In this document: piece by piece, positions 318 to 11,918 of the stretch | Layout: every line of letters starts with the position of its first letter | How positions within the stretch are numbered: the first letter of the stretch is position 1 | Virus record (IMG/VR): IMGVR_UViG_3300049215_000814 | Coordinates: 1-28,181 of that record | Source of the DNA: a virus | Reading direction: 5' to 3' (one strand) | DNA length: 28,181 nt | Program-made: the position numbers and the translations under genes | Notes under the pieces: model-generated | Database searches by the model: none | Told to the model about the DNA's origin: nothing | Seen by the model: the letters and a program-made list of their open reading frames with translations, nothing else

Positions 318-647
318 ATGAACAAAAACATACGAATCGAAAACCCTGTGTCCGGGTGCGAGTTCACGTCGAAGAATCGCGCGCAGCGTTTCATAAAGCA
401 GGGACGGGCGGAGTGGGTCCAGACTGGAGTTTCGATACGGTTTGTTCAATCAGATCACCGCCACAGCTCCGCACAGAAAACTGTGGACCAGACGCGCTAT
501 TGGTACGAGCGATCGGCGAACACCGGCTTGGCGCAACTTGCAGAACTGGCGAACTTGCCGATGATCTCGCCAGCCGTAGCCCTGGGAATCGGGCGACGGA
601 AGGGTGCCAGCAGACACACGTTTTTGGCGACTCAGGGGCCACGATGA
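318..647 (+). CDS. Small basic protein of unknown function
   Basis: The predicted protein has 109 residues. I start it at the ATG at 318 because the region upstream in the same frame reads as low-quality sequence, while from MNKNIRIENP onward it looks like a real protein. Residues 10-35 (FTSKNRAQRFIKQGRAEWV, then SIRF) resemble a short motif I associate with small hypothetical proteins of soil bacteria and their phages, in which a T-S-x-x-R-A repeat is followed by a basic G-R-A/V-W segment. The second half has no recognised domain. It lies just upstream of the Ntn-hydrolase gene on the same strand. No function can be assigned. Confidence 0.5.
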   Translation: MNKNIRIENPVSGCEFTSKNRAQRFIKQGRAEWVQTGVSIRFVQSDHRHSSAQKTVDQTRYWYERSANTGLAQLAELANLPMISPAVALGIGRRKGASRHTFLATQGPR

Positions 648-746
648 TCGCTGCGAGCGGCCAACCTGAACGGAGGTATGTACTTCCCCAAGGGTCCAAG
701 TGATATCATCCCTTACGATTCATCGGAAGGAAGACGAGGCCCGAGG

Positions 747-1430
747 GTGACATATCAAATCGTAATGTGCGGCAAAGAAGGCTTGGTCGTGGCTAGCGAC
801 AAGCGCGAACTCAGGGAATCCGGCGGCATCGATCAAGTGGGTCATGGGTTCAGTGCCAACATGCTATCGAAGATTTACATCAATAGCGCGCATAGTCTGG
901 CATGGGCGTTCGCGGGTGGTGAAATCAGTAGAATCGCTGCAGCGTACCTTGACGATGCCTTCAACAATGCATCTTCCGATCTTTCAATCGAGGAAGTAAA
1001 ACAGACGATAGTGCAGTGTGGAAACAGCGCATGGAAAGATTATGCTCGTGGCCCCCAACAGGCTGTTGTTACGCTCGTGATCGGCCCAACAAGGACAATT
1101 CTACGCGCTACGATCACACCAACTACGGTGGTAGATGAGCTGAGTGGTACTCATCCCGTCTTCGCTGGCCAGGCGCACAGTCAAGCAAGCCTACTTCCGA
1201 CTAGATTCTATTCGAGAGACATGACCATCCCGGAATTGGCATTCTTAGCTGGATGCACGATCCGCATGGCCCACGAAGCTGATCCGCAGATAATCGACGG
1301 ATTAGATATTGCCGCATATCGTGACGCCACCAAGAGCTTCGAGTTGCTGGACCCAACTCTCTACTGGGATCGTGCAAAAGAAATTGACGCAGTGGTGATG
1401 GAATGCATTCGCAGAAACAACCCTGCGTAA
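747..1430 (+). CDS. Proteasome-like (Ntn-hydrolase fold) protein, possible threonine peptidase
   Basis: This 227-residue protein resembles the 20S proteasome beta / HslV family. I chose the GTG at 747 over the ATG at 678 (the same frame is open upstream) for two reasons. GAGG sits 7 bases before the GTG. That start also places Thr directly after Met, so removal of Met would expose Thr1, as the family requires. In mature numbering Thr1 is followed by GLVVASD with Asp17, the catalytic position in proteasomes. Lys41 in SKIYIN can stand for Lys33 after an eight-residue insertion. WAFAGGEI and later ADPQIIDGLDIAAY match the glycine turn and the D-x-x-SGG-like segment. Self-compartmentalised assembly is not shown. 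A counted sample has 25 G+C in 60 bases, well below the phage genes, suggesting cargo. It could instead be an inactive family member. Confidence 0.7.
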   Translation: MTYQIVMCGKEGLVVASDKRELRESGGIDQVGHGFSANMLSKIYINSAHSLAWAFAGGEISRIAAAYLDDAFNNASSDLSIEEVKQTIVQCGNSAWKDYARGPQQAVVTLVIGPTRTILRATITPTTVVDELSGTHPVFAGQAHSQASLLPTRFYSRDMTIPELAFLAGCTIRMAHEADPQIIDGLDIAAYRDATKSFELLDPTLYWDRAKEIDAVVMECIRRNNPA

Positions 1431-1846: not shown

Positions 1847-3184
1847 ATGCGCAGCCCCAAACAAATCAAACCGCAGTCCCCGTCCTTCGCCGTCGAGTGG
1901 TGGCTGATTGGCCGCGTCACGCCGTATCCGAACAACGCCAGGGTGATTCCGGCGTCGGCAGTTGAGAAGGTCGCTTCCTCCATTCGAGCCTTTGGGTGGC
2001 GTCAGCCGATCGTGGTCGATGCCGATGGCGTGATTATCGTCGGGCACGTTCGGCTGCTGGCCGCGCAGTCAATGGCGATGACCCAGGTTCCCGTTCACGT
2101 CGCGCTCGATCTCACGCCCGGCCAGGTGAAGGCGTACCGGCTCATGGACAATCGGTCCCATGATGAGGCGACGTGGGATTTGGATCTGATCGGGCCGGAA
2201 CTTCAGAGCATCCAGGAACTGGACAGCGATTTCGATCTGGCGCTGACCGGGTTCGATCAAGATGAGCTCAACGCCTATCTGTTCCCGGAGGAGGAAACCA
2301 CCGGGGAAGAGGATCTGGTTTCGTTGCCGCCGGTCGTGCCGGTCACTCGGGCCGGCGACCTGTGGCTCTGCGGCGAGCACCGAGTGCTCTGCGCGGATTC
2401 GACGAGCCCGGAGGCGGTGGCCCGGTTGCTCGGTGATCGCAAACCGTTTCTGATGATCACGGACCCGCCTTACGGAATCGAGCTGGATTCAGAGTGGCGC
2501 GATCGTGCCGGACTGAACGGCTGCGGACCTGCAGAGGCGAGTTACATGAAGCACCGCACGGAGGGTCACACGCAAACGGAAATCTCGGGCGACACCCGCG
2601 CGGATTGGTCGGAAGCCTTCGCGCTGGTGCCGAGCCTCGAGGTGGCCTACGTCTGGCACGCATCGAAGTTCACGCGCGAGGTTCTCGATGGTTTGCTGGG
2701 AATCGGTTTTCTGCATCACCAGCAGATCATCTGGAACAAGGGACGCACCGTGCTGACGCGCACGCACTACTGGTTCCAACATGAGCCGTGCTGGTACGTC
2801 CGAAAAAAGAACGCGCCATGGTTCGGGAAGCCCGGCGAGAACTCCACCATCTGGGATTCTCCGTCGCCGAAGTTCATCATGGGCGGATCGGACGAGGAGA
2901 AACTCGATCACCCCACGCAAAAACCCGTCGCGCTGATGCGGCGGCCGATTCTGAATCACACCAAGCTTGGCGAACTGGTGTACGAGCCGTTCCTCGGCAG
3001 CGGCACCACGCTCGCCGCGGCGGAGTTGACGGAGCGCGTCTGCTGCGGCATTGAACTCGATCCGAAGTACGTCGATGTGGTGGTCGAGCGATGGCAGCGG
3101 CTCACGGGCACGGAAGCAACGCTCGATGGTGATGGCCGGACGTTCGAGCAGATGAAGGCCGAGCGTGTGGGGATCGCCGCATGA
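1847..3184 (+). CDS. ParB-like domain fused to a DNA methyltransferase
   Basis: The protein has 445 residues. Residues 15-110 form a ParB-N-like domain (GHVRLLAA at 66-73, DNRSHDE at 101-107). Residues 165-425 form an N4-cytosine/N6-adenine methyltransferase with DPPY at 206-209, HPTQKP at 355-360 and FLGSGTT at 382-388. The catalytic DPPY motif precedes the AdoMet-binding motif, which is the beta-class order. The same frame is open back to a TTG at 1820, but that start lies inside the repeat array, so the ATG at 1847 is preferred. No restriction endonuclease lies next to it, so it is an orphan methyltransferase of the kind common in phages. Likely roles are protection of phage DNA from host restriction or epigenetic control. 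The target sequence cannot be read from the protein. Confidence 0.9.
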   Translation: MRSPKQIKPQSPSFAVEWWLIGRVTPYPNNARVIPASAVEKVASSIRAFGWRQPIVVDADGVIIVGHVRLLAAQSMAMTQVPVHVALDLTPGQVKAYRLMDNRSHDEATWDLDLIGPELQSIQELDSDFDLALTGFDQDELNAYLFPEEETTGEEDLVSLPPVVPVTRAGDLWLCGEHRVLCADSTSPEAVARLLGDRKPFLMITDPPYGIELDSEWRDRAGLNGCGPAEASYMKHRTEGHTQTEISGDTRADWSEAFALVPSLEVAYVWHASKFTREVLDGLLGIGFLHHQQIIWNKGRTVLTRTHYWFQHEPCWYVRKKNAPWFGKPGENSTIWDSPSPKFIMGGSDEEKLDHPTQKPVALMRRPILNHTKLGELVYEPFLGSGTTLAAAELTERVCCGIELDPKYVDVVVERWQRLTGTEATLDGDGRTFEQMKAERVGIAA

Positions 3185-3629: not shown

Positions 3630-4058
3630 CTACTTGGCGGTTTTGTAAACGCGGTCGCCCGCGTCGTTCTTCGAGGACTCAATATTGATGCTGTGCTTCT
3701 TGGCGGCGATGGAAATGAAACCCCTGACGCTGTGGGCCTGCCAGTCGGTGGCCTTCATGATCTCGGCGAGGGTCGCGCCCTTGGCGCGGGCGATCATGTC
3801 CAGGATTTTCGCGCCTTTGCTCTCGGCGCGCGGGGCGGTGGCTTTGCGTTCGGGCTTGGCGGCTTTCTTCGCGGCCTTGGCTGCCTTCTTCGGCGCAGCG
3901 GCTTTGGCTTTGGCACCCTTGGCGGTTTGCTGGCCCTTGGGCGCGCCCTTCTTCTGGGTGGCAGCCGTCTTCGAGGCGGCCTTCGCGAGCGCAATGGGCG
4001 CGCCCTGTTCCGCAACGGCGGCGGGTTGGGTGGTTTCTGTGGCTTCGTGGTTCTTCAT
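3630..4058 (-). CDS. DUF3489 protein with a histone-like Lys/Ala tail
   Basis: I start this 142-residue protein at the ATG at 4058, which has AAGGA about nine bases upstream. The same frame is open to 4106, but there is no better signal there. Residues 25-85 are a disordered Lys/Ala/Pro tract (KAAKAAKKAAKPERKA) like the tails of histone H1 or AlgP-type proteins. Residues 85-142 (KGAKILDMIARAKGATLAEIM, then SVRGFISIAAKK) are the DUF3489 domain, a probable winged-helix DNA-binding fold. The likely role is DNA binding. It runs against the structural genes, immediately upstream of the terminase pair, where lambda-like phages carry cos and packaging signals. A regulatory or chromatin-like role is inference. 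Confidence 0.85.
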   Translation of the reverse strand: MKNHEATETTQPAAVAEQGAPIALAKAASKTAATQKKGAPKGQQTAKGAKAKAAAPKKAAKAAKKAAKPERKATAPRAESKGAKILDMIARAKGATLAEIMKATDWQAHSVRGFISIAAKKHSINIESSKNDAGDRVYKTAK

Positions 4059-4086
4059 GGTCTTTAATCCTTTCCGTTCAAGTGCT

Positions 4087-4102
4087 TGCGCGTCTTCGCG
4101 CA
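4087..4102 (+). promoter_or_regulatory. Short hairpin in the divergent terminase/DUF3489 spacer
   Basis: TGCGCG and CGCGCA form a perfect 6-bp stem around the tetraloop TCTT. It lies in the 96-base spacer (4059-4154) between the diverging DUF3489 and small terminase genes. This spacer should hold promoters for one or both genes, though I see no convincing -35/-10 pair. In lambda-type phages cos lies just upstream of the small terminase, so the hairpin could be part of a packaging or operator site. This is weak evidence. Confidence 0.25.
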
Positions 4103-4154
4103 CCACGATTCATCACTCCGTTTGAACCGGAAAGCAAGGCGAATCTTTCTTCCA

Positions 4155-4678: not shown

Positions 4679-6574
4679 ATGCAGCCGTTCTCGATTCACG
4701 AAGTGGGCGCCGCGGCGATGCTGCCACCACGCGACATCACGGTCGCGAAGTGGGCCGACGAGAATCGTGTGCTCACCGGCGGTGCGGCGGCCGAGCGCGG
4801 GCAGTGGCACACGCGTCCGTATCAGCGCGAGCCGATGGAGGTGCTCAGCCCAGCGCATCCGTGCCGGCAGGTCGTGTTGCTTTCGGCGGCGCAGCTTCTG
4901 AAGACCGAAGTGCTGCTGAACTTCATCGGCTTCATTGCCGACGTCGATCCGGGGCCGGTGCTGGTGGTCGAGCCGCGCGCTGAAGACGCGAAGGCGCTCT
5001 CGAAGGATCGCGTGGCTCCCATGTTCCGCGCCACGCCGGCTTTGCGCGGGAAGATCGCGCCCGCCAAGTCGCGCGATTCGAACAACACCACGCTGCATAA
5101 AGTTCTCGCCAACGGCGAAGGACACATCACGTTCACAGGTGCGATCTCGCCGTCCGGTCTTGCGATGCGGCCAATCCGGTACGCGCTGCTCGACGAGATT
5201 GATCGTTATCCGGCGAGCGCAGGCACGGAGGGCGATCCGGTATCGCTGGCCATCCAACGCACCTCCGAGTTCGCGCATAACAAGAAGATCGTCATGGCGT
5301 CGACGCCGACAATCAAAGGCATCAGCCGGATCGAGTTGGCGTGGCTTGAAAGCGATCAGCGCGATTACTTTGTGCCGTGCCCGAAGTGCGGGGAGTACCA
5401 GGTGTTGGTGATGGGAGACGGAACCGGACCTGGACTTGTGTGGACGGAGGGGAAACCGGACGAAGCGGCGTATCGCTGCGCCGGATGCCGCGAGCTGGTC
5501 CCGAACCACGAGAAGGCGCGGATGGTCGAGAGCGGCGAGTATCGCGCGCAGAATCCTTCGTCGCCGATTCCGGGATTCCGTGTCTCGCAGTTGATCTCGC
5601 CGAAACGGAGTTGGGGGTCGATCGCGGTCGAGTTCCTCGCGGCGAAGAAGTCGCCGGAGACGCTCAAGGCGTTCGTGAATACCGTCCTCGCCGAACTGTG
5701 GGAAGAGAAGCACGAAACTCCGATGGATGAGCGCGCGCTGTGGAATCGCTGCGAGCCGTTCGAGGCCGAGGCGCCGGAGGGAGCCGCGCTGATCACCGCC
5801 GGCGTGGACGTGCAGGCGGATCGGCTCGAGGTGGAGCTCGTCGGATGGGGGCGCGACGAGGAGTCGTGGTCGATCGCCTATCACGTGATCCCCGGCGACA
5901 TCATGCGTAACGAGGTGTGGGATCAACTGGAGAGCCTGCTCACTTCCGAGTGCATGCACGATTCCGGCCTGGGCATGCGCGTAGTTGCGGCGGCCATCGA
6001 TTGCGGATTCAAAGACGCGCAGGTACTGCGGTTCACGCGCGACCGCTATGCGCGCCGCGTATACGCCGTGAAAGGACGTCCGGGCCAAACTCCGATCTGG
6101 CCGCGCAAGCCGAGCCGGAAGAATCAGACGCCATTCTTTATGGTCGGGGTCGACGCCGCGAAGACGGCGATCTATGACCGGCTGAAGATCCAGGAGCCGG
6201 GACCGGGATTCTGCCATTTCCCGCTTGGCCGCGAGCTGGAGTACTTCGAGCAGTTGACTGCGGAGAAGAAATTCACGCGCTATCACAACGGCTTCCCGAA
6301 GCAGGAATGGAAGAAGGCCGCCGGCGCGCGGAACGAGGCGCTCGATTGCCGGGTCTACGCCTACGCGGCGCTGTACGCGCTGTACGCGAGCGGGTTGCGG
6401 CTGGGTGCGCACTGCGACAAGTTCGCGCAGATGGCGGGTGGTCGACGCGCTGAGCCCAAGCCGGCGATGCCGCCTCAGGAACAACATCGGCAGCAGCCGA
6501 CGGGAGGCGTGCCGCCCGCGCTCATTGAGCGGACGACTCCCGAGCCGTGGGTCCCACGGAGGAACTGGTTCTGA
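4679..6574 (+). CDS. Terminase large subunit, GpA family
   Basis: The protein has 631 residues, the usual size for lambda GpA-type terminases (641 in lambda). The N-terminal ATPase has a deviant Walker A (SAAQLLKTE, residues 69-77) and Walker B (YALLDEID, 168-175), followed by MASTP (206-210) as a coupling motif. Two CxxC pairs (Cys234/237 and Cys267/270) form a zinc-ribbon insertion. The nuclease half begins around residue 372 with AGVDVQADRLEVE, carrying the acidic metal ligands. The protein pumps DNA into the prohead and cuts it at packaging sites. GpA enzymes usually make cohesive ends, so the phage is probably a cos type. The next gene overlaps the stop by one base. Confidence 0.97.
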   Translation: MQPFSIHEVGAAAMLPPRDITVAKWADENRVLTGGAAAERGQWHTRPYQREPMEVLSPAHPCRQVVLLSAAQLLKTEVLLNFIGFIADVDPGPVLVVEPRAEDAKALSKDRVAPMFRATPALRGKIAPAKSRDSNNTTLHKVLANGEGHITFTGAISPSGLAMRPIRYALLDEIDRYPASAGTEGDPVSLAIQRTSEFAHNKKIVMASTPTIKGISRIELAWLESDQRDYFVPCPKCGEYQVLVMGDGTGPGLVWTEGKPDEAAYRCAGCRELVPNHEKARMVESGEYRAQNPSSPIPGFRVSQLISPKRSWGSIAVEFLAAKKSPETLKAFVNTVLAELWEEKHETPMDERALWNRCEPFEAEAPEGAALITAGVDVQADRLEVELVGWGRDEESWSIAYHVIPGDIMRNEVWDQLESLLTSECMHDSGLGMRVVAAAIDCGFKDAQVLRFTRDRYARRVYAVKGRPGQTPIWPRKPSRKNQTPFFMVGVDAAKTAIYDRLKIQEPGPGFCHFPLGRELEYFEQLTAEKKFTRYHNGFPKQEWKKAAGARNEALDCRVYAYAALYALYASGLRLGAHCDKFAQMAGGRRAEPKPAMPPQEQHRQQPTGGVPPALIERTTPEPWVPRRNWF

Positions 6575-7797: not shown

Positions 7798-7982
7798 GAA
7801 TCAACCCAACCGTGATCCAGTGCGACTGCGGATCGCCAGTACTCATTTTGAACGAGCAGGGCATGTTCACCTGCTCGAATCCGCAGTGCGTGAACTTCGA
7901 GAAGGTGTTTAAGCCGGTCGAGGTCAAGGCGGTTCGCTCGCAGAAGACGTACCGGGAAACTGTATATACGGCGGCGGAATGA
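7794..7982 (+). CDS. Small zinc-ribbon protein preceding the portal
   Basis: The protein has 62 residues. It contains CDCG, then CSNPQC (Cys-x-Cys, 15 residues, Cys-x4-Cys), which looks like a small metal-binding ribbon. The ATG at 7794 overlaps the stop of the upstream mini-ORF (ATGA). A TTG at 7755 with GAGGG just upstream is an alternative start adding 13 basic residues. The portal ATG overlaps its stop codon (ATGA), so it belongs to the head operon. Small proteins are common between gpW and the portal in lambda-like phages. The exact role is unknown. Confidence 0.7.
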   Translation: MRINPTVIQCDCGSPVLILNEQGMFTCSNPQCVNFEKVFKPVEVKAVRSQKTYRETVYTAAE

Positions 7983-9670
7983 ACGTTCTCGATCGGGCCA
8001 TCAACTTCGTTGCGCCTCGCTATGGGCTGCGGCGGACGCAGGCGCGCATGGCGCTGGAGTTGACCGAGGGTTACATTGAGCGGCACGCGTCGCGCTTTTC
8101 CTACGACGGGGCAACCGCGGGACGGCGCGCTTACGGCTGGTACGCTCCCTCGACCGACGCCAACGTCGAGTTGATGGGGTCACTGGTGTGGCTCCGCAAC
8201 CGAAGCCGCGATCTGATCCGCAACAATCCGTATGCGTCGAAGGCCATCGAGGAGCTGGCCGGCAACACGGTGGGGACCGGCATCGTGCCGCAGGCGAAGA
8301 CGGGTGATGCGGGCCTTGACCGAATCATCGATGCCGAGTGGCCGTACTTCGTAGAGAACTGCGACACCCCGCAACGGCTGGATTTTTATGGGATGCAGTC
8401 GCTGATCATGCGCACGGCCGCCGAGAGCGGCGAGGCCATCCTGCGGTTCCGGCCGCGCCTGGCGAAGGACAACCTGCGCGTGCCGCTGCAGCTCCAGATC
8501 CTGGAGGCCGATTTTCTAGACCAGACCAAAACGATGGGCACGGTCAATGGCCACATCATGCAGGGAGTCGAGTTCGATCTGCTCGGACGGCGGTCAGCGT
8601 ACTGGCTGTACACGTATCATCCCGGCGGCGTTCTGATTCTGAATCCGCGCGGCGGAATCCTGAGCCAACCGATTCCCGCCGAGCAGGTGCTGCACACGTA
8701 TCGGGTGCTGCGACCCGGACAGGTGCGCGGCATTCCGTGGCTGCATCCGGTGATGATGGCGCTGCGCGATCTCGATGACTACGCCGACGCGGAGCGGGTG
8801 CGGAAGAAGATCGAAGCCTGCGTGGTGGCAATGGTCACGCAGCCGGAAGGTATCGACGGCTCGACGCTTGGCCTTCAGGGGAAAGACCCGCTGACGCGGA
8901 ATCCGGTCGAGTCGTTTCAACCCGGTATGACCGCGTACCTGAAGCCGGGTGAGGACGTGAAGTTCAACAATCCTCCGGTCGCGGGCGGCTATCGCGAATA
9001 CAAGATGACGGAGTTGCAGGGGATCGCGGCGGGGCTGGGGATTCCTTACGAGATGCTGGCGGGCGATCTGTCGCTGGTCAATTATTCGAGCTGGCGGGGC
9101 GGGCAGTTGGGGTTCCGCAACACCATCGAAGGATACCGGTGGCTGACCCTGATTCCGATGTTCTGCATGCCGGTGCGACGGCGCGTGATCGACACGCTGG
9201 TGCTGTTGGGCAAGGTCCCGGCGAAGGCCGTCACTGATCCGAAGATCAACCTGTACGGCACGCAGTGGACGGCTCCTCGATTTGAATCGGTGGACCCGGT
9301 GAAGGACGCCGAGGCTGCGCTCAAGGACATTCGCATCGGGCGTGTGACGTGGTTTGAAGCGGTGGTGGCCAATGGATTCGACCCTAACGCGCAGATCGAA
9401 CAGATCGCCCTGTTCAACAAGCTGATGGACAAGTACGAAATCATCCTCGACTGCGATCCGCGCAACATGACTCTGCGCGGCCAGGAGCAGCCCGCCGGGA
9501 CCGAGGAACGAACGCCCACAAGCAAGGCGGTCGGAGGTGCGCCGAGGCCCGCGAATCAGTCGGCGAAGCTCGCCGATGAAGATCTGGGAATGATCAAGGA
9601 ACTGCTCGTGGCTGGCGCGACGAACCGCGCGCGTGGATGGGAATCTCCCACGCGGATGTACCTCACCTAA
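7979..9670 (+). CDS. Portal protein, lambda gpB family
   Basis: The protein has 563 residues, close to lambda gpB (533). It begins with the typical N-terminal region (NVLDRAINFVAPRYGL). Conserved stretches include LRNRSRDLIRNNPYASKAIEEL at about residues 71-92, the stem-like QILEADFLDQ near 170, and the GLGIPYEMLAGDLSLVNYSSWR segment near residues 350-371, characteristic of the lambda portal family. Twelve copies would form the ring at one capsid vertex through which DNA enters and to which the tail joins. The C-terminal 70 residues are charged and disordered. Translation is coupled to the zinc-ribbon gene by ATGA, and the capsid fusion gene follows after 16 bases. Confidence 0.97.
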   Translation: MNVLDRAINFVAPRYGLRRTQARMALELTEGYIERHASRFSYDGATAGRRAYGWYAPSTDANVELMGSLVWLRNRSRDLIRNNPYASKAIEELAGNTVGTGIVPQAKTGDAGLDRIIDAEWPYFVENCDTPQRLDFYGMQSLIMRTAAESGEAILRFRPRLAKDNLRVPLQLQILEADFLDQTKTMGTVNGHIMQGVEFDLLGRRSAYWLYTYHPGGVLILNPRGGILSQPIPAEQVLHTYRVLRPGQVRGIPWLHPVMMALRDLDDYADAERVRKKIEACVVAMVTQPEGIDGSTLGLQGKDPLTRNPVESFQPGMTAYLKPGEDVKFNNPPVAGGYREYKMTELQGIAAGLGIPYEMLAGDLSLVNYSSWRGGQLGFRNTIEGYRWLTLIPMFCMPVRRRVIDTLVLLGKVPAKAVTDPKINLYGTQWTAPRFESVDPVKDAEAALKDIRIGRVTWFEAVVANGFDPNAQIEQIALFNKLMDKYEIILDCDPRNMTLRGQEQPAGTEERTPTSKAVGGAPRPANQSAKLADEDLGMIKELLVAGATNRARGWESPTRMYLT

Positions 9671-9686
9671 TCACCAGGAGAAATCT

Positions 9687-11918
9687 ATGAGCGACCCACG
9701 AGGCGAGTACTTCGCCGCGAGTGACGAGGAGATCTCGTTCGTTCCGACCACGCTCGACGCGGACGAACGCACCGTCGATGTCGTTTGGTACGGCGGCGCG
9801 ACGGTCCCGAGAACCGATCCCGACACCGGCGATGAGTACATGCTGCAGCTCGATATGGACGGCGCGCGACTGGACCGGCTGAACAACGGCGCTCCGGTGT
9901 TCGACAACCACATGAACGGAACCGATGTTCGTTCGGTGATGGCGAACAAGTCCGGCACGCGCGCGCAGATCGGCGTCGTGCAGAAGGCTTGGGCGGATGG
10001 TCCGAAGGGGATGGCCACGCTCAAGTTCCGGCCGGAGGGTCAGGATCAAAACAGCGACCTGGTCTGGTCAGGAATCCAGTCTGGAATTATTCGCAGTCTC
10101 AGTTTCGGCACTTGGCTCTACGCCAAGGAGCCGCAGGACGCCAGCAATGGCGCGACCAGCAATGTTTTCACGGCGACCGATTGGGAGCCGTTTGAGATCT
10201 CGGCGGTGAACGTACCGGCGGATTTCACCACCACGTTTTTGTCCGCGACACCTTTGTCAGCTAAAGCCGCGGATCACACTCGGGCAACTCGCCCAATTAA
10301 GGAGACCATCGTTATGGAAACGACGACTCAAGCGGGCGGAGATGCCCGTAATGATCAGGTAGTGCTCGACGCGGCGCGCGCCGAGGGAACGAGGCTGGAG
10401 CGGCAGCGCGTGAGTGAAATCACGTCGCTGGGCACCAGTTTCAAGTTGGAGAAGCTCGCAGCTTCTCTGGTGACGGCGGGAGTCTCGATCGAGGACGCGA
10501 AGTTGCGGTTCGGTGGGGCTTCCGAGATCCGAACGATTGGAACACCAATGTTGAAGTACGGCGTTCCACAGCAGTTCATCGACGGGCTGATCGATCAAGG
10601 CGTGACGGTCGATGCAGCTCGCGCGAAGATCCAGGACGAGCTGGCAGCGCGGGCGAACCAGACTCGCGAGGGCCGCGAGTTCCAGCCGCGAAGCGAGGTT
10701 GTGATCACGCGCGACGCTAACGAAACGCGCCTCGCCTGCATGCAGGAAGCGCTGGTGCTGCGCTGCAATCCGCAGTTCTACATGCAGAAGCGGCGGTCGT
10801 TCGGGGGAGAGATGGAGTTTCTTCCGGGCGGCGGGTCCGAGATGCAGCGGCGCGCCGAGGAGATGGGCCGTGAGTACGTCGGCTTCTCGCTCCTGGAGAT
10901 GGCGCGCGAGAGCCTGGAGCTGCGCGGCGTCAACACGCGTGGCATGGACAAGATGACCATCGCAACCAAGGCGCTGATCCAGTACGACGGCAAGGTCGAG
11001 ATCTTCGGCGGCGGTGCGGAGTCGACCAGCGACTTCCCGTCGATCCTGGCGAACGTCGCGAACAAAACGCTGCGCCAGTCTTATGAAGCCTATCCGCAGA
11101 CGTTCAAGCCGTTCTGTCGTCAGGTGACCGCGCCGGACTTCAAACCGATCAACCGCGTGCAACTGTCGGATTCGCCCGCGTTGCGTCCGTTGAATGAAAA
11201 GGGCGAGTACACGCGCCTGACGCTCACCGACACGAATCAGAATTATTCACTCGCGACCTATGGCGGCGTCGTGGCGCTGACCCGCAAGACGATCATCAAC
11301 GACGACCTGCAGGCGTTCACGCGGATTCCGGCGGTGCTCGGTGTCGCGGCAGCGCGCAAGCAGTCGGACGTGGTCTGGGCCATCATCACCGGCAACCAGG
11401 TGATGCAAGTGGACAACACGGCGATGTTTGCGACCGCGCACAACAACCTGCTGACCGGCGCCAACAGTGCGCTGGCGCTTGGGGCGGGCAATCCGGTAAC
11501 GGGCATCGCCGCCGGGCGCGTCGAGATGCGCACGCAGACTGGTCCGCAGGGCACCCCGCTGAATCTGATTCCGCGGTATCTGCTGGTTCCCGCCGCGCTC
11601 GAAACGCTGGCGCTGCAACTGATCTACCCGATCCAGTTAGCCGCCAACCAGATCACCGGCGTGGTTCCCGAGTGGATTCAGGGACTGGTGCCGATCGTGG
11701 AACCGCGTCTTGACGTGAACAGCACGACCGCCTGGTACATGGTCGCCGATCCGACGCAGATCGACACCATCGAGTACTGCTTCCTCGAAGGGCAAGCGGG
11801 CGTGTACTTCGAAACGCGCCAAGGCTTCGAGGTTGATGGCATCGAAATGAAAGCGCGCATGGATTTCGCGGCTGCAGCGATCGATTATCGCGGGCTGCAG
11901 AAGAACGCTGGGAGCTAA
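9687..11918 (+). CDS. Prohead protease-major capsid fusion protein
   Basis: The protein has 743 residues. I start it at the ATG at 9687, which has AGGAG seven bases upstream. The frame is open back to 9633, inside the portal gene. Residues 15-190 are an HK97-type prohead protease, with candidate catalytic His75 (FDNHMNG) and a Ser at 137 or 139 (GIIRSLSFG). Residues 210-340 are helical and charged, resembling a scaffold or delta domain. Residues 420-743 are a Mu gpT-like major capsid protein (VLGVAAARKQSDVVWAII, then DNTAMFATAHNNL). Fusions of this kind are known in phages of many bacteria. The protease is expected to cut the scaffold part away during maturation. A strong internal start lies near the protease/scaffold boundary and is listed separately. 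Confidence 0.95.
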   Translation: MSDPRGEYFAASDEEISFVPTTLDADERTVDVVWYGGATVPRTDPDTGDEYMLQLDMDGARLDRLNNGAPVFDNHMNGTDVRSVMANKSGTRAQIGVVQKAWADGPKGMATLKFRPEGQDQNSDLVWSGIQSGIIRSLSFGTWLYAKEPQDASNGATSNVFTATDWEPFEISAVNVPADFTTTFLSATPLSAKAADHTRATRPIKETIVMETTTQAGGDARNDQVVLDAARAEGTRLERQRVSEITSLGTSFKLEKLAASLVTAGVSIEDAKLRFGGASEIRTIGTPMLKYGVPQQFIDGLIDQGVTVDAARAKIQDELAARANQTREGREFQPRSEVVITRDANETRLACMQEALVLRCNPQFYMQKRRSFGGEMEFLPGGGSEMQRRAEEMGREYVGFSLLEMARESLELRGVNTRGMDKMTIATKALIQYDGKVEIFGGGAESTSDFPSILANVANKTLRQSYEAYPQTFKPFCRQVTAPDFKPINRVQLSDSPALRPLNEKGEYTRLTLTDTNQNYSLATYGGVVALTRKTIINDDLQAFTRIPAVLGVAAARKQSDVVWAIITGNQVMQVDNTAMFATAHNNLLTGANSALALGAGNPVTGIAAGRVEMRTQTGPQGTPLNLIPRYLLVPAALETLALQLIYPIQLAANQITGVVPEWIQGLVPIVEPRLDVNSTTAWYMVADPTQIDTIEYCFLEGQAGVYFETRQGFEVDGIEMKARMDFAAAAIDYRGLQKNAGS
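10299..10316 (+). promoter_or_regulatory. Internal ribosome binding site and start in the capsid fusion gene
   Basis: AAGGAG at 10299-10304 lies nine bases before an in-frame ATG at 10314. This falls exactly between the protease domain and the helical scaffold part of the fusion protein. Initiation here would give a 534-residue protein containing scaffold plus capsid without protease. It parallels the nested scaffold Nu3 inside lambda gene C, where scaffold is needed in excess of protease. The match could be chance, but its strength and its placement at a domain boundary argue for function. Confidence 0.6.

Follow-up and report, generated by a model that had tools for sequence, protein, structure and literature searches.

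A proteasome-like gene within a phage of probable acidobacterial hosts

The window, by which we mean the whole 28,181-base stretch of DNA analysed, corresponds to the entire IMG/VR virus record IMGVR_UViG_3300049215_000814, itself a fragment, and encodes head decoration and tail proteins in addition to the features below.

318–647, plus strand: small conserved phage gene of 109 aa (NIRIENP), on the left flank of the insert; it adjoins the ParB-methyltransferase gene in the sister phages L002 and L006 and in prophage L082
665–1543, no strand assigned: insert of ~880 bases with the proteasome-like gene, missing in L002 and L006 (blastn)
678–746, plus strand: in-frame upstream extension from ATG 678 (23 residues), judged untranslated or not retained; no well-spaced ribosome site
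735–738, plus strand: Shine-Dalgarno-like GAGG, 8 bases 5' of GTG 747
747–1430, plus strand: proteasome-like (Ntn) protein, 227 aa from GTG, assigned from the ORF, hhalign, BLASTP, Foldseek/VIA-align and alignment
750–752, plus strand: Thr1 codon (ACA), candidate nucleophile, kept in 21/21 aligned sequences
798–800, plus strand: Asp17 codon, kept in 21/21 aligned sequences
870–872, plus strand: Lys41 codon (proteasome Lys33 position), in an SK[IF] motif common to the relative L163; Lys column kept across relatives
915–917, plus strand: Gly56 codon, candidate for the oxyanion-hole Gly47, invariant in alignments A4 and A7
1847–3184, plus strand: ParB-like and N6/N4 DNA methyltransferase, on the right flank of the insert (PHROG 498, E=1.5e-115; Pfam N6_N4_Mtase)
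3630–4106, minus strand: Ala/Lys-rich protein with DUF3489 at its C-terminus (Pfam), on the opposite strand within the phage
4679–6574: terminase
7979–9670: portal
9633–11918: head maturation protease fused to the major head protein in a single 761-aa ORF (PHROG 4523)

We retained 80 IMG/VR relatives of the terminase (69–100% identity). Metagenome-assembled genomes from Solibacteraceae, Bryobacterales and other Acidobacteriia contain relatives of the phage, so that its host is most likely a soil acidobacterium; members of its group form prophages.

Translation from GTG 747, which is followed by ACA, runs to the end of the ORF at 1430 and reads MTYQIVMCGKEGLVVASDKRELRESGG...MLSKIYI...AFAGG. With Thr as residue 1, Asp falls at 17, Lys at 41 and Gly at 56, which bears out the first-pass annotation in its Met-Thr start, its exact placement of Asp17 and its assignment of Lys41 to a Lys33-like segment, the T1, D17 and Lys columns being kept among 21 aligned relatives. 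The lysine is found at 41 rather than 33 because ~6–8 residues are inserted between D17 and Lys; this insertion is lacking in the nearest relative (MTYQVGLVGADGFVLASDQ...), which is encoded on the 59-kb IMG/VR phage contig L163 and has its lysine at K35, 1 or 2 columns off the alignment column yet within the same S-K-[IF] motif.

The sole Shine-Dalgarno-like sequence near ATG 678, GGAGG, ends 1 base 5' of that codon, and the spacing of GAGG favours GTG 747 over the upstream start, whose use without processing before Thr the first-pass annotation had named as counting against its proposal. An ATG, GTG or TTG directly precedes the Thr codon in 18/18 profile-set relatives as well as in L163 and L164, and this pattern in 20 relatives supports the predicted Thr1; purine-rich, Shine-Dalgarno-like stretches lie ~7–10 bases 5' of the start in L163, L009 and L164. 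Methionine aminopeptidase takes off a Met that precedes Thr. According to the published survey, only proteasome beta and HslV have propeptides (PMC8665760).

Agreement at T1, D17 and Lys is weak evidence when judged by motif alone, and we regard these matches as other than chance because they are accompanied by a BLASTP match to L163, a profile match and a fold search. The equivalents of proteasome Ser129 and Ser169 are not kept in the alignment of the window protein, and its activity could therefore be reduced or absent. The conserved residues and the start-codon pattern nonetheless make a catalytically competent Thr1 likely.

Remote homology and predicted fold

Standard libraries overlook this protein. 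Pfam PF00227 (Proteasome) gives 13.4 bits (E=0.063), below the curated cut-off of 22.4 bits, and there is no match in NCBIfam, PHROGs or PADLOC; PDB sequence searches, whether queried with this one protein or with a pair of sequences, return nothing credible, and direct searches of phages, plasmids, IMG/VR and GTDB genomes return nothing. Searches of 396 + 257 acidobacterial genomes yield chance-level matches only, and the gene was not found in the searched chromosomes. L163, which came out of scanning IMG/VR with a degenerate DNA pattern for the beginning of the protein, is the sole close-type homologue recovered, at 25% identity over residues 1–192 (BLASTP, E=3e-10), and the match takes in a C-terminal segment, FLAG.TI..A...P....GL.IA. 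A match in L093 was dismissed as a ribosomal S16 region, and L168–L170, found in a looser scan, encode proteins that are not proteasome-like.

Profile comparison extends this relationship. A joint profile built from eight acidobacterial Anbu proteins and ten group II-like homologues, of which acidobacteria supply nine and phage L009 one, aligns collinearly with residues 1–198 at an hhalign score of 42.9, compared with maxima of 19.6 for 200 shuffles and 19.0 for 12 unrelated phage proteins. Searched against the PDB on its own, the group II-like profile retrieves 20S beta subunits (E=8.7e-9). A profile of Anbu alone gives a weak match to the window protein (score 24.7, probability 5%). HslV was considered as nearest relative and rejected, with hhalign giving only 11.8 and no match for a two-sequence HslV profile. 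In the tree, the window protein joins L163 at 97/92, a grouping to be taken cautiously given that both branches are long; the window protein falls outside the acidobacterial Anbu clade, with deeper placement weakly supported, and the phage proteins of L009 and L164 are placed apart from the pair. Phages have thus probably gained proteasome-like genes more than once, although one origin is also compatible with the tree.

AlphaFold was run on the single sequence (pLDDT 34.8) and then on an alignment of four phage-borne sequences, which gave a low-confidence model (mean pLDDT 41.5, pTM 0.43). The order of elements in this model (pLDDT 41.5) is proteasome-like, namely β-β-α-α-β-β-α-β-β-α, with helices at 58–73 and 81–99 and a C-terminal one at 203–224, all at low confidence. 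Foldseek with this same low-confidence model (pLDDT 41.5) places proteasome subunits at the top of its PDB matches with probability 1.00, and VIA-align, from the same low-confidence coordinates, gives its best alignments to Anbu 5nyw_J (195 residues, Z 10.1, rmsd 5.6) and, tied with it, to 20S subunits. The fold result supports the sequence evidence and is no substitute for it, since AlphaFold may recall common folds.

The BLASTP match to L163, the profile score of 42.9 against a maximum of 19.6 and the fold search, with its low-confidence model, uphold the proteasome-like identity first proposed, and no structure lacking the predicted four-layer alpha-beta-beta-alpha Ntn fold emerged. The suggested likeness to 20S and HslV stands as regards the active-site arrangement; overall, the protein resembles Anbu and the group II homologues more than HslV. 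This placement also bears on whether the protein might serve as a decoy, joining or inhibiting a ring of the host, be it HslV or some other proteasome-like assembly. HslV-sized proteasome-family genes are near-universal in Acidobacteriota, the prophage-bearing genome G002 included, and would offer such a target, but HslV (11.8) is a more distant relative of the protein than are Anbu and group II, and the conserved T1, D17 and Lys speak for catalysis; we consider a decoy role very unlikely.

Insertion site, sister phages and mobile elements

Comparison with sister phages defines the insert. The flanks at 212–664 and 1544 onward match L002 at 87–89% identity with 16 bases between them, and in L006 the flanks at 212–664 and 1556 onward align likewise, with 28 bases between; prophage L082 has both neighbours of the insert and lacks the proteasome-like gene. 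The GC3 of the gene is 0.54, versus 0.77–0.83 in most structural genes, and from the empty sister sites together with this low GC3 we infer that it is accessory cargo. That the window protein is a true, very divergent member of the proteasome-like (Ntn) family, carried as such cargo, appears almost certain from the sequence comparisons. The gene had been described as standalone, which holds, and as lying next to a phage module, which does not, as it is cargo inside a phage, the whole window being a virus record.

Decay into a functionless passenger would account for the missing counterparts of Ser129 and Ser169, for the low GC3 and for the patchy distribution of the gene. Its 227 codons are open, however, and the T1, D17 and Lys columns and the start context have been kept while the remainder diverged to ~25% identity, a pattern that leaves decay with little probability.

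The left neighbour of the insert is itself variable. In this phage group the 109-aa protein at 318–647 alternates, left of the methyltransferase gene, with an unrelated small conserved protein of ~120 aa (L009:4712–5074 and relatives), and neither has a Pfam or PHROG match. Other contents of the proteasome-gene region in sister phages include homologues of PADLOC RmrA and RmrT (L005:1–1763), PIN-domain and methyltransferase genes (L017), an HD-domain gene (L013) and, in L009, a different proteasome-like gene.

The search for homologues and their neighbours proposed at the outset recovered L163, L009 and L164, with endolysin, HicB-like and transposase genes among the neighbours, the first two of these lying beside the L163 gene. 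The proteins of L009 (3237–4226) and L164 (4869–5657) are unlike that of the window, and both have T1 and D17; the L164 gene, on a 107-kb contig, matches PHROG 1040, 'peptidase HslV family'.

An anti-phage or toxin-antitoxin-like function in the prophage might be suspected from the RmrA/RmrT, PIN, HD and methyltransferase genes that sister phages hold in the same region, and from the HicB-like gene adjoining the L163 homologue. Such shared location is indirect evidence, though; no PADLOC model matches the window protein or its phage relatives, and none of the literature searched ties such a proteasome-like family to defence. We regard a defence role as unlikely.

Proteasome-like genes also occur beside insertion sequences. 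They lie tail to tail with IS1-like transposase genes, with few bases between or overlapping, in L009 (2462–4226), L096 (1438–3279) and L154 (1387–3212), the transposases of L096 and L154 being 57–59% identical to that of L009; another transposase type, IS1595-like by eye, is found nearby in L095, L162 and L153. These arrangements suggest that some IS elements carry proteasome-like passenger genes. The L009-type transposase is not a general carrier, as only one (L186) of ~30 other copies adjoins such a gene, and the window insert does not qualify as an IS-borne passenger, as it lacks both a transposase and terminal inverted repeats. A literature search on transposon passengers returned nothing on proteasome genes.

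Proposed function and relation to known systems

Searches with AAA_2 and AAA find no match and no HslU-like ATPase in the window record, a fragment, in agreement with the first-pass annotation, and AAA_2 finds none in the L163, L009 and L164 records. The same absence is described for the novel proteasome homologues, with which no AAA+ partners co-occur (PMC8665760). A partner gene could lie outside the fragmentary window record.

We favour, at a probability of roughly 0.6, a divergent standalone Ntn hydrolase that is optional cargo of an Acidobacteriota phage and acts as a Thr peptidase without a dedicated unfoldase. Translation would begin at GTG 747, host methionine aminopeptidase would strip the Met and expose Thr1, and Thr1, activated by Lys41 and Asp17, would attack a peptide bond in a substrate that is either unfolded or recognised specifically, without the help of a dedicated AAA+ unfoldase. 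The phage or lysogen might gain from having a host or rival-phage protein processed by a small Thr peptidase; we put forward this kind of substrate and this benefit tentatively, with somewhat less than even confidence.

Several known systems resemble this arrangement. Fuchs, Alva and Lupas described 22 new proteasome-like families in 2021, several of them in phages and with functions unknown (PMC8665760), and a Citromicrobium phage encodes an annotated proteasome homologue (PMC8953757), so that the phage setting, which had been called unusual, is uncommon and has precedent. The phage families PPH, AAH, CPH, PMI-4 and DAH (PMC8665760) share with the window protein a standalone fold, Thr1/Asp17/Lys, occurrence in tailed phages and the lack of an AAA+ partner. 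PPH proteins have ~140 residues and no helix H2, whereas the window protein has 227 residues and, in the low-confidence model, both helices, and by length and helices it is unlikely to be a PPH. It may or may not be a member of PMI-4, AAH or DAH.

Likeness to Anbu comprises the MTY start, an EGLV.ASD motif, the C-terminal helix of the low-confidence model and the 5nyw_J match tied with 20S; the window protein differs in having phage genes in place of the Anbu operon neighbours and in its weak match to the Anbu-only profile. The long C-terminal helix of Anbu, H5, forms a coiled coil, and its possible counterpart in the window model is helix 203–224, at low confidence. With HslV the protein shares the arrangement of Thr1 and Asp17, and it differs in lacking a profile match and, in this fragmentary record, HslU.

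Connectase, an archaeal ligase, is likewise a standalone proteasome homologue with an identical set of active-site residues, and it raises the prospect that the window protein is a peptide ligase or transpeptidase that joins or swaps peptides and does not degrade them. That a homologue with this triad is able to act as a ligase (PMC8665760), and that an AAA+ partner is absent here, fit such an activity. However, connectase lacks H1-H2 and the window model has both (58–73 and 81–99, in a weak model), and the extra residues of the window protein precede the Lys, whereas connectase carries a two-helix insertion between S3 and S4. Ligation is accordingly improbable by our estimate. A broader conjecture, to which we give low odds, is that the window protein and L163 form a phage-restricted subfamily of unfoldase-free, substrate-specific processing enzymes or peptide ligases that prophages turn against proteins of the host or of rival phages.

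The window protein represents a new, divergent phage lineage of an already known kind of phage-borne proteasome homologue. It adds a lineage overlooked by Pfam, NCBIfam, PHROGs and PADLOC to the phage proteasome homologues without known function, and it places the gene as removable cargo at a defined site that is empty in sister phages. In the corresponding region a related phage, L009, gained another, different gene of the proteasome-like type, and IS elements are one route by which proteasome-like genes may spread.
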